A stretch of 40,547 nt of DNA from the NCBI GenBank assembly GCA_945882675.1, contig CAMCWU010000004.1, positions 1-40,547 of the forward strand, read 5' to 3'. Below the pieces are notes generated by a model. That model was not told where the DNA came from, did not search any database, and saw only the letters and a program-made list of their open reading frames with translations. Every line of letters starts with the position of its first letter. Positions within the stretch are counted from its first letter, which is position 1. The DNA is from Klebsiella pneumoniae. Its GTDB lineage: Bacteria > Myxococcota_A > UBA796 > GCA-2862545. Both the position numbers and the translations under genes were made by a program. Positions 5,532-17,368 of this stretch are shown in pieces.

Positions 5532-7748
5532 ATGACCGAGTCCATCACAGGCAGAACCATCGGCGGGAAGTACCTCGTCACGAGCCACCTGCGCTCGACA
5601 CGCATGGGCGACTTCTGGCTCGCGCGCCGGAGCGACGACCAGGAGCTGGTGGCGCTGAAGCTGCTCGATCCTACGCTGTTCAACGAGCTCGAGGCGATCA
5701 GCCGCTTCGAGCGGGAGGCCCGCGTGGTCGGGCAGCTCCGGCACCCGTGCCTGCTGAGCCTCATCGATCACGGGCGTACGGACGATGGGATCCCGTACAT
5801 CGTCACCGAGCACATCCCGGGCGAGCTCCTGTCGGACGTCATCGAGGAGTCGGACCACCTCGCGCCCGAGCGGGCGGCGCGGATTGCGGCGCGCGTCGCC
5901 CTCGCGCTGAACCACGCCCATGACCAGGGGATCATCCACCGGGATCTGCAGCCGGCGAACATCCTCGTCACCCCGGAAGGAGACGACGCCGACGGGGTGC
6001 GCGTCCTCGAGTTCGGCCTCGCGCGCATCGCGCAGAGCGACACCGGCGGGGACGAAGCGAGCCTCACGGCCGTGGGTGTGCGCATCGGCTCGCCGGCCTA
6101 CATGGCGCCCGAGTACATCGAGGAGTACTCGCTCGACTTCCGCGCCGACCTGTACTCGCTCGGGATCGTGCTTTACGAGATGCTGGTCGGTACGCCGCCT
6201 TTCACGGGTCGACCGTACAAGATCCTGAATATGCACATCAACGAGCCGGTCCCGAAGCCCTCCGCGGGCGCGGCCGGGATCCCGCCGGCGCTCGACGCGC
6301 TCGTGCTGCAGCTCTGCGAGAAGGACAAGGGCAAGCGCCCGAAGTCGGGGAAGGCTGTCGCGGACGCGCTGGAGGCGATCTTCGCCACGTCGTTCGTTCC
6401 GCAGCCGGCCCACCGCAAGGGCGCGACGCCGACCCCACAGCGTGCCGCCACGTCGGCGCCCATGGCGACCGCGCCCGACCGCGACCCCGTGCTCCAGCGG
6501 TTCACGTCCGCCCAGGTCCGATCCGTGCAGCGCCGGACCGCGGTTGCGCTCCCGAACCGCGCGGACTGCCTCGTGGTGGAGGACGTGGGGAAATGGTCGG
6601 TTTTCGGGGACAATGGCGTGAAGCCGGGCTGGCTGCTGGAGCTGCCGGACGAGCCGCGCACCGGCCTGCGCCCCACTGAGTTCTGGCGCGAGTACGTAGC
6701 GTCTCGTCGGTATCGACTCACGGCGCCCGACGGGTCGGAGCAGGTCGAGATCGTGGCGAGCAGCATCGAGCCGGGCGCAGCGGTGCACAGGACGGTCGAG
6801 CACGTGAGAAAGTTCTTCGATCCTCTCGAGCCGGACGCCGGCGCGCTGTTCGAGCTCTGGCAGCAGGGAGCGTGGGAGGACCTCGAGCGGCTCTCGCGCC
6901 GCGTGATCAGCGGGAGCCGGGGCCCGCTGAACTCGGGGATCTTCTCGCGCTTGTTCGGCGGTGGAGAAAGTCGGAAGCTCGAGAACCACCCGGCGCTGAT
7001 GTTCCTCGGCGCCGCGCTCTTCGAGACCGGCAAGGAGAAGGAGGGCGCGGATCTCGTGCAGGAGTACCTCACGAGCTACGGCACGCAGTGGCCGGCGCGA
7101 TACCAAGCGGTGGCCCTTCTTTACGACGGCATGAAGGCGCGTCGGATGAACCGCGACAAGATCGCGCTCGAGCGCTGGCAGTCCGGCCTCGAGATCGAGC
7201 CGCTCGAGCGCCTGGTCGCCGGGATCGAGCAGCTCACGGGCGAGCGGCGAAACCCGACGCCGTGGCTCGCGCAGAAGTTCCCCGACTACAACATCGAGGT
7301 TTACGGCGGCAGGGAGGAGGTCCGGCTGACGGACACGCTCGATAGCCTGGATGGAAGCCAGCTCCTCGCGGTCGTGATGCTCGGGGGGTTCCGTGGGAAC
7401 GCCGAGTACAACGAGCTGATGAGCCGCTGGCTCGCGTACGTCACTTGGTTCGCCGACTTCCTGCCGGAGGTGCATGTCATCACCACGCGGCCCGAGCGCG
7501 AGACGGATAGGCCCGAGTTTTATGCGGCGGAGGACGCCGCGAAGCGCGCGGGCGTGAAGATCCACGTGCTGAACGACAGCAACGCCTGGGTGCAGCGCAA
7601 GGTCAAAATCTCCCGGGTGCCGACCGTGTTCCTCGTCAACAAGTGGGGGTACGTCGCCCACGAGGGACTGGTGCAGCCGCCGGCCATGTGGGACGCCCTC
7701 CGGCGCAACGCCGTCATGCGCCTGCGCGCGCTGAGCCAGCAGACATGA
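5532..7748 (+). CDS. Degenerate Ser/Thr kinase fused to PDZ-like, helical and thioredoxin-like domains
   Basis: A 738-residue protein. Residues about 10-285 are a Hanks-type kinase domain with VALK (Lys43), the helix-C Glu in FEREARV and GSPAYMAPEY. The catalytic loop reads HRDLQPAN (136-143, Lys replaced by Gln), the metal-binding DFG is EFG (160-162), and the Gly-rich loop keeps only one Gly (RSTRMGDFW), so catalysis is doubtful. A segment near 340-435 looks PDZ-like (GVKPGWLLELP). Next comes a helical, TPR-like region, then from about 605 a thioredoxin-like fold (LLAVVMLGGF, RVPTVFLVNKWG with the cis-Pro) that lacks the CxxC pair. No transmembrane segment is visible, so it is probably cytoplasmic. 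Its stop overlaps the ATG of the next gene (ATGA), implying coupled expression with the Cys-cluster protein. Confidence 0.9.
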   Translation: MTESITGRTIGGKYLVTSHLRSTRMGDFWLARRSDDQELVALKLLDPTLFNELEAISRFEREARVVGQLRHPCLLSLIDHGRTDDGIPYIVTEHIPGELLSDVIEESDHLAPERAARIAARVALALNHAHDQGIIHRDLQPANILVTPEGDDADGVRVLEFGLARIAQSDTGGDEASLTAVGVRIGSPAYMAPEYIEEYSLDFRADLYSLGIVLYEMLVGTPPFTGRPYKILNMHINEPVPKPSAGAAGIPPALDALVLQLCEKDKGKRPKSGKAVADALEAIFATSFVPQPAHRKGATPTPQRAATSAPMATAPDRDPVLQRFTSAQVRSVQRRTAVALPNRADCLVVEDVGKWSVFGDNGVKPGWLLELPDEPRTGLRPTEFWREYVASRRYRLTAPDGSEQVEIVASSIEPGAAVHRTVEHVRKFFDPLEPDAGALFELWQQGAWEDLERLSRRVISGSRGPLNSGIFSRLFGGGESRKLENHPALMFLGAALFETGKEKEGADLVQEYLTSYGTQWPARYQAVALLYDGMKARRMNRDKIALERWQSGLEIEPLERLVAGIEQLTGERRNPTPWLAQKFPDYNIEVYGGREEVRLTDTLDSLDGSQLLAVVMLGGFRGNAEYNELMSRWLAYVTWFADFLPEVHVITTRPERETDRPEFYAAEDAAKRAGVKIHVLNDSNAWVQRKVKISRVPTVFLVNKWGYVAHEGLVQPPAMWDALRRNAVMRLRALSQQT

Positions 7749-8812
7749 TCAAGACGCCCGCCGGCATCCGCTGGAGCTGCCACGGCTGCGGGACGTGCTG
7801 CACCGGCCACGACCTGGGGCCGGTGGAGCCCGCGGTGATCCCGCGGCTGATCGACGCCGGCATCGCCGAGAAGTGGGCGCCCGCGGCCGACGGTTGGTTC
7901 GAAGAGCGGACGGACGGGATCTTCCTGCGGCAGGTCGGCGGCGCGTGCGTATTCCTGCGTCCGGACAAGCTGTGCGCGGTCCACGCCCTCGTCGGCGCGG
8001 ACGCGAAGCCCGGGTTCTGCCGTGAGTTTCCCTACCACTTCGTGGACGACCCGCGCGGGACGGTCGCGGTGATCCGCGCCACGTGCGCAGGGTTCTACCG
8101 GTCGTTCCGGGACGGGGCGGAGCTCGATCCGGCCACCGTGGAGGCCGCTGCGGCGCTCCCGCGCGTCGCTCCGCGTACCCGGTTCGCGCCCGCCACCGTG
8201 CAGGCGCTGCCGGGCCTGGACGTGCCGCTCGACACCTGGCTCGACTGGGAAGCCGCCGCGATCGCGGACCTCGAGGCGGTCGGGGCGGCCCCGCCCGCGA
8301 CGCAGATCGGCTACGTCCGGGACGGCATAGCGCGGCGCGCCGGCATCACGCTCGCGCCCCCGCGGCCCGAGCAATACGACGCCGCGGTCCGGGCGCTCAG
8401 CTTCATGTTGGTCCGGGTGCTGGAGGCCGCGCTCGCGGCACCGGGCGGCCAGGCGCACCAGGTCGAGTTCGCGCAGGACTGCCGCGCCCTGCTCATCGGC
8501 GCGCACGAAGCCCGGATCCCAGGGCCGCTGGACGACGAAGCGCTTGCGTGGGTGGATCTCCTGCTTCGCAGCCAGCTCCTGGCGCGTCCGTGGGCGGCCT
8601 GGGGAGGGCTCGCGGAGGGGCTCGGGGTGTGGCTGCTGGGGATCGAGGTCGCGCAGCGCGCGATCGGCCGCCCGGTGTCGCCAGCGGACCTCGCGGCGCC
8701 GCTGGAGGCGTGGGAGCGGCTCGTCGCCATCGGGGTCGTGGGGCAGTGGCTGCGCAAGGCGAAGGTCGCATTGATCGACCTCGTCATGCACGCGCCAGCG
8801 GGGCAGGCCTAG
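7745..8812 (+). CDS. YkgJ-type Cys-cluster protein (CxxCxxCC), long form
   Basis: A 355-residue protein whose N-terminus has Cys12, Cys15, Cys18 and Cys19 (SCHGCGTCC), plus later Cys in GGACVFL, KLCAVH and GFCREFP. This is the metal/Fe-S-binding pattern of the YkgJ family, to which flagellin N-methylase FliB also belongs. The family covers the first 130 residues; the remaining 220 form a mostly helical extension I do not recognise. The ATG shares bases with the TGA of the kinase/thioredoxin-like gene (ATGA at 7745-7748), so the pair is almost certainly one transcript. A redox-linked or modification role alongside that protein is inferred from this coupling. It converges with a possible small gene whose stop overlaps its own. 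Confidence 0.88.
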   Translation: MIKTPAGIRWSCHGCGTCCTGHDLGPVEPAVIPRLIDAGIAEKWAPAADGWFEERTDGIFLRQVGGACVFLRPDKLCAVHALVGADAKPGFCREFPYHFVDDPRGTVAVIRATCAGFYRSFRDGAELDPATVEAAAALPRVAPRTRFAPATVQALPGLDVPLDTWLDWEAAAIADLEAVGAAPPATQIGYVRDGIARRAGITLAPPRPEQYDAAVRALSFMLVRVLEAALAAPGGQAHQVEFAQDCRALLIGAHEARIPGPLDDEALAWVDLLLRSQLLARPWAAWGGLAEGLGVWLLGIEVAQRAIGRPVSPADLAAPLEAWERLVAIGVVGQWLRKAKVALIDLVMHAPAGQA

Positions 8813-9307: not shown

Positions 9308-10527
9308 GTGCTCACCACGAGCGCGCGCATCGACGACCGCTTCCGGGAGCGGGCATCCGTCCAGCGCAACAGCATCGAGGCCGTGCTCTGCCTGCCCATC
9401 CCGGACCCGCCAGGCGGCGTCGTCTGGATCGAGCGCGCGGCGTCGAAAGGCCCGTACCTGCCGGAGGAGGTCGCCTTCGCGCGGGCGGCGGCCGCGATCG
9501 CCGGCGCCACGCACCTGCGCCTCCGGAGCGCGCCGAGCGCCGCCCCCCCTGGCCGCGGGCTGTCGCACGACGGGTTCGTCGCGGAGAGCCCCGCGATCCG
9601 CGCGGCGCTCGAGCAGGTGGCGATGGTCGCGCCGCTCGACGTGGACGTGCTGCTCACCGGCCCGTCCGGCGCCGGCAAGACCGAGATCGCGCGGCTCCTG
9701 GCCGGCAACAGCAGCCGGCGAACCGGCCCGTTCGTCGCCGTGAACTGCGCCGCGATCCCCGAGAACCTGTTCGAGTCCGAGCTCTTCGGCGCCCGCGCCG
9801 GCGCCCACTCGACCGCCACGCGCGCGATCGCCGGGAAGGTGGAGGCCGCTCGCGGCGGGACCCTGTTCCTCGACGAGATCGGAGAGGTGCCGCTCGGCGC
9901 ACAGGCCAAGCTCCTCCAGGTGCTCCAGGAGCGCGTGTACTGGCCGCTCGGCGCGTCGGAGGCGGAGCGGGCAGACGTCCGCGTGATCGCCGCCACTAAC
10001 GCGGATCTTCCCGCGCTCGTGAAGGAGCGCCGCTTCCGCGAGGATCTGTACTGGCGCCTCGCGGTCTTCCCCATCCAGGTGCCTGGGCTCGATCGGCGGC
10101 GCGAGGACATCGTCCCGCTAGCGGAAGCGTTCGCGACCAGCGCCAGCGGCCGCCTCAAGCTCGAGCGGGTCCCGCTGTCGGCGACTACGGCCGCCTGGCT
10201 CGAAGCGCGCGACTGGACCGGGCACCTCCGTCAGCTCCGCAACGGCGTGGAGGCCGCGGTGATCCGCGCGAACCACGAGGGCGCCACGACGATCGCCCCG
10301 AAGCACTTCGGCGCCGCGCCGGCGGACGCCCCGCCCCGCGTATTCTACGACCTGACGCGGGACTTCCAGCGCTCCCTGCTGCAGCGCGCGATGAGCCAGG
10401 CCGGCTCCCGCGCGGAGGACGCCGCAGCTGCCCTCGGCCTCGCGCGGTCGACGTTCTACAAGCTGTGGCGCGAGGTCGGCCTCTCCGACGGGACCCGGAA
10501 CACGGAGGGGCCCAGGAACGGCGACCC

Positions 10528-10531
<4 letters not shown>
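9308..10531 (+). CDS. Sigma-54-activator-type AAA+ regulator with Fis-like HTH (downstream part of interrupted gene)
   Basis: The frame is open from 9263 after the TAG; GTG at 9308 is the first plausible restart and gives 407 residues. The rest of a GAF domain is followed by the AAA+ domain: Walker A GPSGAGKTEIA, FVAVNCAAIPENLFESELFG, Walker B GGTLFLDEIGE, VRVIAATN and the RFREDLYWRLAVF sensor region. The C-terminus ends in a Fis-type HTH (AEDAAAALGLARSTFYKLWRE). The loop that normally reads GAFTGA and touches sigma-54 reads GAHSTA (9800-9817), so it may not act on sigma-54. The TGA overlaps the ATG of the kinase-SUMF1 gene (ATGA at 10528-10531), suggesting one regulatory unit in which the kinase could modify or read out the activator. 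Confidence 0.88.
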
Positions 10532-12759
<2,228 letters not shown>

Positions 12760-14976: not shown

Positions 14977-16278
14977 TCAGCTGGCTTCCGACGGGAGGAT
15001 CGCCCGGGAGATCGCGCCCAGGAGCTCGTCACGCGCACACGGCTTGCGGATAATGCCGCCGCTCGGGAGGTGCGCGCCGAACAGCGACGAGCTGGTCGAC
15101 AGCGAGCTCGTGTAGATCACCGGAATGCCGGGCCGACTGGCCTGAACGTCCTCGAACGCGCCCTCCGACGCGAGGATGACGTCCACGAGGGCGACGTCCA
15201 CGAAGCCCCGATGGCCCTCGACCGCGCGCACGGCCTCCGCCGCATCCGCCGCGACAAGGACCTGGACGCCCTCCTCCTCGAGCTGCTGCCGGAGCCAGCG
15301 CTGGCTGCGCAGGTCGTGGTCGAGGACCAGCGCCGTCCGCTTCCGGGGGATCCCCGCTGGAATGGACAGCGAGGGGCGGGTGAGCCGCGGGATCAGCGGC
15401 ACGCTCGACCGGGGCGGCACCACGAGCGGCGGGTGCTTCGGGTCCGGCGGCAGGCGGCCCAGGAGACGGCGGAGATCCTCGCAGAACGCCTTGGCGGTGC
15501 GCGTGCGCTCCGCCGGGTCGTACGCGAGCGCCCGGATCAGCACATCCTGCAGCGGCCCCGGGATCCCGTCGAGCAGCTCCGGCCGGAAGCTCATCGCGAA
15601 GAGGTCGAGCTGGATCCGGTCGGTCAGCAAGCTGTACAGCGTCGCCGCGAGGCCGTAGACATCTGACGTGGGCGTGGCGCCGCGCCCGTCCTCGCGCTGC
15701 TCGGGCGCCATGTAGCCGAGCGTGCCGATCGACTCGCCCGTGTGCGAGTGCTGCGCATCCCCGACCTCGAACCGGGCGATCCCAAAGTCCGCGACCTTGA
15801 GGCGGCCGTCGATCGTCATGAGCAGGTTCGCGGGCTTGAGGTCGCGGTGGACGATGCCGTACTCGTGGGCTTCACGTACGCCGTCCGCGGCCGCGGCTAC
15901 CATTCCGACCGCGAGCCGGGGCGGCAGCGGTCCATGCCGCTCGACCCAGCCGCCGAGCGAACCGCCTTCGCACAGCTCCATGACCAGGTACGAGAAGCCG
16001 GCTTCCTCCCCGCTGTCGTAGACGGCGACCACGTGCGGGTGGTCGAGCGCCCGCAGCGCGCGGGCCTCGCCCTCGAACCGGGCGCGATGCGTCGGATCCG
16101 CGAGCACACGCGGGTCCGGGATCTTGACCGCTAGCGACTCCCCCGTGCGCTCGTCGTGGACCTTGTACACGGACGCCATGGCGCCCCGCCCGATGGCTTC
16201 CAGCAGCCGATAGCGCCCCCCCAACCTCTCCGGAGGGCGAGGCGGCGGAGAATCCGAGGCGGGGAACAGGCTCGACAT
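14977..16278 (-). CDS. Hybrid Ser/Thr kinase with C-terminal receiver domain
   Basis: A 433-residue cytoplasmic protein. Residues 22-275 are a complete Hanks kinase: IGRGAMASVY, Lys52 in AVK, HRDLKPAN (144-151), DFG (164-166), GTLGYMAPEQ. A Pro-rich linker (280-310) leads to a receiver domain (314-428) with the acidic pair near 320-322 (VLDHD), phosphoacceptor Asp366 (ALVDVIL), Thr/Ser at 390-391 and Lys412 followed by Pro (IIRKP). All active residues are kept in both parts, so a histidine kinase elsewhere could phosphorylate the receiver and control the Ser/Thr kinase. ATG at 16278 with AGGA upstream. Divergent from the arginase-family gene (67 bp between them). Confidence 0.92.
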   Translation of the reverse strand: MSSLFPASDSPPPRPPERLGGRYRLLEAIGRGAMASVYKVHDERTGESLAVKIPDPRVLADPTHRARFEGEARALRALDHPHVVAVYDSGEEAGFSYLVMELCEGGSLGGWVERHGPLPPRLAVGMVAAAADGVREAHEYGIVHRDLKPANLLMTIDGRLKVADFGIARFEVGDAQHSHTGESIGTLGYMAPEQREDGRGATPTSDVYGLAATLYSLLTDRIQLDLFAMSFRPELLDGIPGPLQDVLIRALAYDPAERTRTAKAFCEDLRRLLGRLPPDPKHPPLVVPPRSSVPLIPRLTRPSLSIPAGIPRKRTALVLDHDLRSQRWLRQQLEEEGVQVLVAADAAEAVRAVEGHRGFVDVALVDVILASEGAFEDVQASRPGIPVIYTSSLSTSSSLFGAHLPSGGIIRKPCARDELLGAISRAILPSEAS

Positions 16279-16345
16279 GGCCGCATCCTATCCGGTCGCC
16301 CGAGTCCATGTCAGGGGGGATATAGGGGTCGCCCGCGGAGGCAGC

Positions 16346-17368
16346 ATGACCGACTTCGACCCCGACGGCCCGGCGCGGCCCGGGAGCCTGTTCGGGCTCC
16401 CCAGCACTCCCGACGACGCGCGCGTCGTCGTCATCCCCGTCCCGTTCGAGGCGACGGCGTCCTTCGGGCGCGGGACCTCCGGCGCGCCCGCCGCAGTGCT
16501 CGAAGCCTCGTCACAGGTGGACCTCACCGACCTCGAGACCGGCGAGCCGTGGCGCGAAGGCATCGCCATGCTGCCCATCGATCCCACGATCGCGGCCTGG
16601 GACGCCGAAGCGAGCGGCCTCGCGCTCCAGATCATCGACGCCGGCGGGCCCACGCCCGAGCTCGCGGCGGCCAGCGCGCGCGTCAACGCGATCGGCGCGT
16701 CGCTGAACGCCTGGGTGTACGCCCAGACGAAGCGCGTGCTCGACGCCGGAAAGATCCCCGGGGTCCTCGGTGGGGACCACTCGGTGCCGTTCGGCGCGAT
16801 CCAGGCCGCGGCCGAGCGCTTTCCCGGCATGGGCATCCTCCACGTAGACGCCCACGCGGACCTGCGCGTCGCATACGAGGGCTTCGAGTGGAGCCACGCC
16901 TCGATCTTCTACAATGTGCGGACGAAGATCCCAGGCGTCGGCAACATCGTCCAGGTCGGGATCCGCGACGTGGGGGCGGCGGAGCTCGAGTTCTCGCGGA
17001 ACCGCGAGGATATGTTCATGTACACGGATCCCGAGCTCGCCTGGGAGATGGCGGGCGACGAGCCGTGGCTCCGGATCTGCGCGCGCATTGTCCGGCCGCT
17101 CCCGCGGGACGTGTGGGTGAGCTTCGACATCGACGGCCTCGAACCCTCGCTCTGCCCGGAGACGGGCACGCCGGTGCCGGGCGGATTGCGCTGGCGGGAG
17201 GCGCTCCTGCTCCTGCGGGTGCTCGCCGAGAACAACCACCGGATCGTGGGGTTCGACCTGGACGAGGTGGGGACGGGCGCATGGGACGCGAACGTGGGCG
17301 CGCGGCTGCTCTACAAGCTCGCGGGCTGGTCGATCGCGTCGCGGGAGAACACAGGTCCGAAGTACTGA
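16346..17368 (+). CDS. Arginase/agmatinase family Mn-dependent ureohydrolase
   Basis: A 340-residue enzyme with the binuclear Mn site of the ureohydrolase family: GGDHS (142-146, His145), DAHAD (168-172) and SFDIDGLEP with Asp261 and Asp263. It hydrolyses a guanidino group, releasing urea. The substrate (agmatine, arginine, guanidinobutyrate or another) cannot be fixed from sequence, and the gene context gives no polyamine neighbours. ATG at 16346 follows GGAGG by four bases; an upstream in-frame ATG at 16277 would start inside the kinase gene's initiation region and is rejected. The C-terminal FDLDEVGTG replaces the more usual Glu/Asn-Pro loop. It converges with queE, with only four bases between the stops. 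Confidence 0.85.
   Translation: MTDFDPDGPARPGSLFGLPSTPDDARVVVIPVPFEATASFGRGTSGAPAAVLEASSQVDLTDLETGEPWREGIAMLPIDPTIAAWDAEASGLALQIIDAGGPTPELAAASARVNAIGASLNAWVYAQTKRVLDAGKIPGVLGGDHSVPFGAIQAAAERFPGMGILHVDAHADLRVAYEGFEWSHASIFYNVRTKIPGVGNIVQVGIRDVGAAELEFSRNREDMFMYTDPELAWEMAGDEPWLRICARIVRPLPRDVWVSFDIDGLEPSLCPETGTPVPGGLRWREALLLLRVLAENNHRIVGFDLDEVGTGAWDANVGARLLYKLAGWSIASRENTGPKY

Follow-up and report, generated by a model that had tools for sequence, protein, structure and literature searches.

Among described kinases, the nearest working model for the protein reported here is PknG, an actinobacterial Ser/Thr kinase in which a rubredoxin-like domain acts as a regulator and a C-terminal TPR region acts as a scaffold (PMC8546545). 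Both are soluble kinases with a redox-type domain, and ours may also have a TPR-like region. However, the rubredoxin of PknG is N-terminal to its kinase domain, and PknG has no PDZ domain and no thioredoxin fold, whereas our 738-amino-acid protein ends in a redoxin-like domain without cysteines. The possibility that it is simply a PknG was ruled out by the absence of a rubredoxin and by its order of kinase, PDZ, TPR, and redoxin parts (the TPR assignment being weak). PknB-type (Hanks) kinases have the same kinase domain, and PknB led its PDB matches; PknG was not among the matches listed. The protein differs from the PknB type because it has no PASTA domain or membrane segment and its P-loop, catalytic-loop Lys, and DFG motif are altered. 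It scored 246 with the NCBIfam PknB model, for which the cut-off is 450. ResA/TlpA oxidoreductases and peroxiredoxins (PF08534/PF00578) have the same fold as its C-terminal domain, but that domain has no active-site Cys and is joined to a kinase, and the whole protein has no membrane segment. Finally, the product of the adjacent gene is like the FliB/YkgJ CxxCxxCC proteins (PF03692) in having the Cys motif and 8 conserved cysteines. FliB, whose Cys motif is related and which likewise conserves 8 cysteines, binds [4Fe-4S] (PMC8598068).

The gene is at positions 5532 to 7748 on the forward strand of the window (the whole 40,547-nucleotide stretch of DNA that was analyzed), exactly where the initial annotation had placed it. 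It runs from ATG to TGA in one uninterrupted frame. Its translation and its orthologues (L035/L117, L118, L119, and L120) established a domain order of kinase, linker, PDZ-like, TPR-like, and redoxin-like, which bears out the order first proposed. This domain anatomy is well supported, and we refer to the protein as the redoxin-kinase. No Pfam or NCBIfam model covers its tail, and the NCBIfam kinase models were all far below their cut-offs, in agreement with the earlier statement that no described family is known to have this arrangement. A literature search, with most subscription papers outside its reach, found no kinase-thioredoxin or kinase-peroxiredoxin fusions and no similar bacterial pseudokinases. 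A comparison of two species of the genus showed purifying selection on all of the domains. The dN/dS ratio was about 0.21 to 0.33 for each domain, compared to about 0.86 for the linker (NG86; these values are approximate because dS was >1 in most regions). Within the genus, conservation is highest in the kinase domain (68% identity). Promoter and terminator scans detected neither element.

The kinase domain (residues about 12 to 285, positions 5565 to 6386, +) has a Hanks-type fold. Pfam Pkinase (PF00069) matched residues 26 to 276 (E value of 5e-40, 138 bits against a cut-off of 31.7), and other kinase-fold Pfam models matched the same region. The active-site changes that had been noticed from the sequence all proved to be real by translation and alignment. 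The P-loop, LRSTRMGD (residues 20 to 27, positions 5589 to 5612, +), is degenerate in an alignment with 22 kinases, having lost its first two glycines and kept the third. The catalytic loop is HRDLQPAN (residues 136 to 143, positions 5937 to 5960, +), with Asp138 and Asn143 kept and Lys changed to Gln, and EFG replaces DFG (residues 160 to 162, positions 6009 to 6017, +). Therefore, as judged against a canonical Ser/Thr kinase, the VAIK Lys, HRD Asp, and catalytic Asn are present, and the DFG Asp, loop Lys, and GxGxxG are not. In the four complete members of the family, the VALK Lys (Lys43, positions 5658 to 5660, +), HRD Asp, and catalytic Asn are invariant. The loop Lys position is Q, S, A, and A, and the DFG position is E, E, D, and D (EFG within the genus and DFG in L118 and L119, which are from another genus). 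The activation-segment GSPxYMAPE and the C-lobe motifs are also kept.

We compared the protein with the kinases of its own genome in a profile alignment (n = 30). The catalytic-loop Lys was present in 28 of them and DFG in 29. The only EFG was that of the redoxin-kinase, and the only other kinase without the loop Lys has Asn there. Therefore, the departures at the Lys and DFG positions are real for this genome. Among the family members seen, EFG is specific to the genus. The initial annotation was right to call this active site degenerate, with its changed loop Lys, DFG, and P-loop. However, the description does not extend to the family as a set of pseudokinases, because the HRD Asp, catalytic Asn, and VALK Lys are kept in 4/4 and DFG is kept in 2/4. 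Judged by these residues, some of the family may retain activity.

Outside the family, the nearest kinase domains (about 45% identity) belong to three stand-alone pseudokinases with an HRG[IL]DPxA catalytic loop (L036:8001-8831, L040:7823-8647, and L009:1501-2328). They are from the same family of organisms as the redoxin-kinase. However, they have lost the catalytic Asp and Asn and kept DFG, and they have no PDZ-TPR-redoxin tail. HRG-type pseudokinases occur in three genomes that also hold a redoxin-kinase (G010, G012, and G019). The neighbors of L036, an ABC transporter and a TPR protein, revealed no link. A second group of pseudokinases has an HRN or HRA catalytic loop (L014, L020, and L038), and the L014 and L038 proteins end in a hydrophobic, membrane-type segment. 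In a tree, the redoxin-kinases and the HRG and HRN/HRA forms made up one 10-row clade (support 100/98), all without the loop Lys, and the HRG forms were nested among the redoxin-kinases (support 97/94). Loss of the loop Lys is common to the whole clade and is therefore older than the 738-amino-acid protein. We had considered the change from Lys to Gln as a mark of decay in this protein alone, but that idea was dropped because the whole clade is without that Lys. Catalytic loss itself has taken place more than once within the clade.

The PDZ-like domain (residues about 339 to 415, positions 6546 to 6776, +) had been proposed in the initial annotation, and a bridging homologue supports it. When this segment was searched alone, 7 of 8 PDB profile hits were PDZ domains, although these were weak (E values of about 0.7 to 0.9), and the 738-amino-acid protein itself has no Pfam PDZ match. 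However, protein P0003 from genome G008 matched PDZ_6 (E value of 2.3e-5, slightly under the curated cut-off) and aligned to residues 339 to 415 (hhalign 96.7%, E value of 3.7e-10; 30.5 bits, compared to at most 6.6 in 2000 shuffles). P0003 has a clear PDZ domain and no kinase, and its gene (L222:1-453, -) is truncated where the contig stops. The helical region suggested earlier was also borne out (residues about 426 to 572, positions 6807 to 7247, +). Helices were present in a full-length AlphaFold2 model that was made from two sequences and used for secondary structure only (pLDDT of 36). All three PDB profile hits to the region were TPR proteins (weak, E values of 0.2 to 0.4), and one redoxin-kinase member matched TPR_4 weakly (E value of 0.12). 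The region is probably TPR-like, although this assignment is weak.

The C-terminal domain (residues about 578 to 726, positions 7263 to 7709, +) had been described as thioredoxin-like, without CxxC but with the cis-Pro. Several comparisons support that fold, PDB profile hits among them. In profile-profile alignments with nine domains of the redoxin family from its own genome, E values were 4e-5 to 7e-6 over 113 columns, and the alignment took in the N-terminal FPDY strand (APDF in redoxins) and the cis-Pro strand. The score was 34.5, compared to 19.1 for the best of 200 column shuffles, and the controls (receiver, arginase, and a reversed alignment) gave nothing comparable. The cis-Pro motif itself is RVPTVFLVNKWG (residues 695 to 706, positions 7614 to 7649, +), identified by translation, orthologue alignment, and hhalign. 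An AlphaFold2 model of the domain, made from two sequences, had the expected strand-helix order and a thioredoxin fold at moderate confidence (pLDDT of 60, pTM of 0.56). All 50 of the Foldseek PDB matches listed were from the thioredoxin superfamily (ResA/TlpA, peroxiredoxin, and others; E values down to 2e-5, TM about 0.5). Pfam Redoxin (PF08534) scored 15.4 to 18.7 bits, below its gathering cut-off of 26.6. The only cysteines in the protein are at residues 73, 262, and 346, so there are none in residues 347 to 738, and the alignment has no redoxin active-site Cys in any of the five members. Without an active-site Cys, this domain cannot do thiol chemistry.

The stop codon of the redoxin-kinase gene overlaps the start codon of the next gene (ATGA), which the initial annotation had not mentioned. 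This gene (positions 7745 to 8812, +), which is probably translationally coupled to the first, encodes a 355-amino-acid CxxCxxCC protein of the FliB/YkgJ type. It matched PF03692 (29.8 bits against a gathering cut-off of 23, E value of 9.9e-7) and has the motif CHGCGTCC (CX2CX2CC; positions 7778 to 7801, +). Eight cysteines are invariant in three homologues. Based on the analogy with FliB, it probably has an Fe-S or other metal center. However, the partner is not the FliB flagellin lysine methylase, because it scored 22 bits with the NCBIfam equivalog model, well under the cut-off of 85. Its motif spacing is also CX2CX2CC rather than CX4CX3CC. Three genomes (G000, G001, and G010), which represent two genera, have the redoxin-kinase gene followed by the CxxCxxCC gene. 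Directly downstream of the redoxin-kinase, G019 has an agmatinase-like gene and G012 has another gene, and the CxxCxxCC protein is present in 36 of 58 relatives of the order, mostly without a redoxin-kinase. Therefore, the pairing is not obligatory.

In the window, an agmatinase-like, arginase-family gene lies about 8 kb away (positions 16337 to 17368, +; assigned with NCBIfam and Pfam). It scored 143 bits, compared to the agmatinase cut-off of 174. In relatives, this gene is directly after the CxxCxxCC partner or the redoxin-kinase. G010 has redoxin-kinase, CxxCxxCC, and agmatinase-like genes in that order, and G019 has a redoxin-kinase followed by the agmatinase-like gene. A YkgJ-like CxxCxxCC gene followed by an agmatinase-like gene is a recurrent pair in this order of Myxococcota (L202, L203, L208, and L118); in L202, L203, and L208, the second gene was named by its sequence resemblance to Pfam-tested ones. 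The window also encodes a Ser/Thr kinase that has HCDLKPEN and DWG motifs and is joined to a sulfatase-modifying-factor (FGE) domain (10525 to 12759, +), and another Ser/Thr kinase whose C-terminal receiver domain is weak (14977 to 16278, -).

A search for the architecture elsewhere in the Myxococcota found four relatives. Complete orthologues are in G001 (L035/L117, 61% identity), G010 (L118, 39%), and G019 (L119, 37%), and G012 has the C-terminal half of one, cut by a contig end (L120). Therefore, the redoxin-kinase is in only five genomes, all from one family-level group. Searching for the tail in 379 genomes of the phylum found no further members, and a profile search of 71 genomes of the class added nothing except the kinase-less PDZ relative in G008. 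The CxxCxxCC partner is widespread, and in several genomes an agmatinase-like gene comes after it. The redoxin-kinase therefore seems to have joined an older pair of genes in this lineage only. We class it with the bacterial kinase fusions, and its distribution is narrow. Long DxDxDG-repeat proteins (calcium-binding, thrombospondin-3-like) are encoded near it in three genomes (L118:1353-5078, -; L119:10836-13787, +; and L120:2695-5091, -). This might be due to chance in genomes that are rich in repeats.

A cysteine-less redoxin domain beside PDZ-like and TPR-like modules suggests binding rather than chemistry. With the coupled CxxCxxCC gene, the simplest reading is a nucleotide-switched scaffold for the CxxCxxCC protein. 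We infer that the kinase domain probably still binds nucleotide, and that in this genus phosphate transfer would be poor or absent. The redoxin-kinase and its partner are probably made from the same transcript, with translational coupling. The redoxin-like tail, possibly with the PDZ-like and TPR-like parts, would dock the partner, and the docking might be switched when the kinase lobe binds nucleotide, much as the TPR and rubredoxin parts of PknG govern target binding. The protein looks like a member of a small, previously undescribed family of scaffolds rather than an ordinary enzyme. A soluble, nucleotide-binding (pseudo)kinase scaffold that docks the metal partner through its redoxin domain is our tentative preference. 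Loss of the catalytic Asp from its nearest relatives (HRG, HRN, and HRA forms), in a clade with 100/98 support, argues for it, as do the purifying selection on every domain, the ATGA overlap, and the shared gene order. DFG in two orthologues and the HRD Asp in all argue against it, because they would be compatible with an active kinase. The loose pairing with the CxxCxxCC gene and the weak TPR assignment also count against it.

A Ser/Thr (or dual) kinase that is active but unorthodox is a serious rival, although we consider it rather unlikely. The EFG Glu and the odd catalytic loop would then support catalysis, and the tail would only recruit substrates, as in PknG. Replacement of the catalytic-loop Lys occurs in eukaryotic tyrosine kinases, and other kinases of the phylum have replaced it and have an intact DFG (HRDVSPSN and HRDVNPRN). 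The retained Lys43, Asp138, Asn143, GSPxYMAPE, and C-lobe motifs, the DFG of L118 and L119, and the conservation of the kinase domain within the genus are all consistent with activity. However, the genus has lost the DFG Asp and two P-loop glycines, EFG is unique in its genome, and the sister kinases are pseudokinases. It is improbable that the protein instead regulates metabolism (of polyamines or arginine) and works with the agmatinase-like gene, not with the metal-cluster protein. That gene does follow directly in G019, or after the CxxCxxCC gene in G010, and its pairing recurs in three other loci, but here it is distant, its score is below the agmatinase cut-off, and it is the CxxCxxCC gene that overlaps directly.

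The initial annotation had suggested a scaffold or a redox-linked sensor. A thiol-based sensor kinase, with the redoxin domain reading a disulfide or peroxide state, would fit the fold and the Cys in the first core strand of 4 of 5 members (VCMLGG). However, that Cys is Val in our protein, and no member has an active-site Cys. We regard this reading as very improbable and reject it for our protein, which has no Cys in that domain. A redox link might still exist through the coupled CxxCxxCC partner. It is scarcely credible that the fusion arose by faulty assembly or that the gene is decaying. The assembly is a draft in 377 contigs (81% complete), but the complete fusion (37 to 61% identity) is present in two genera whose genomes were assembled independently, with a cut copy in a third, and an uninterrupted frame under purifying selection argues against decay. 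Therefore, an artefact was rejected.

A more elaborate form of the scaffold reading, which we put forward only as a long shot, would join two pseudoenzymes. The nucleotide-switched pseudokinase and cysteine-less redoxin would be a dedicated partner or maturation factor for an Fe-S (FliB/YkgJ-like) modifying protein, and the tail-less HRG paralogues in G010, G012, and G019 might compete or dimerize with it. Few partners of CxxCxxCC (YkgJ) proteins have been identified, and a kinase-like scaffold coupled to one of them would be a concrete, testable partner. Bacterial pseudokinases have been little studied, and this clade, which holds active-looking, EFG, HRN/HRA, and HRG versions together, would provide a natural series for studying how a kinase becomes a scaffold.
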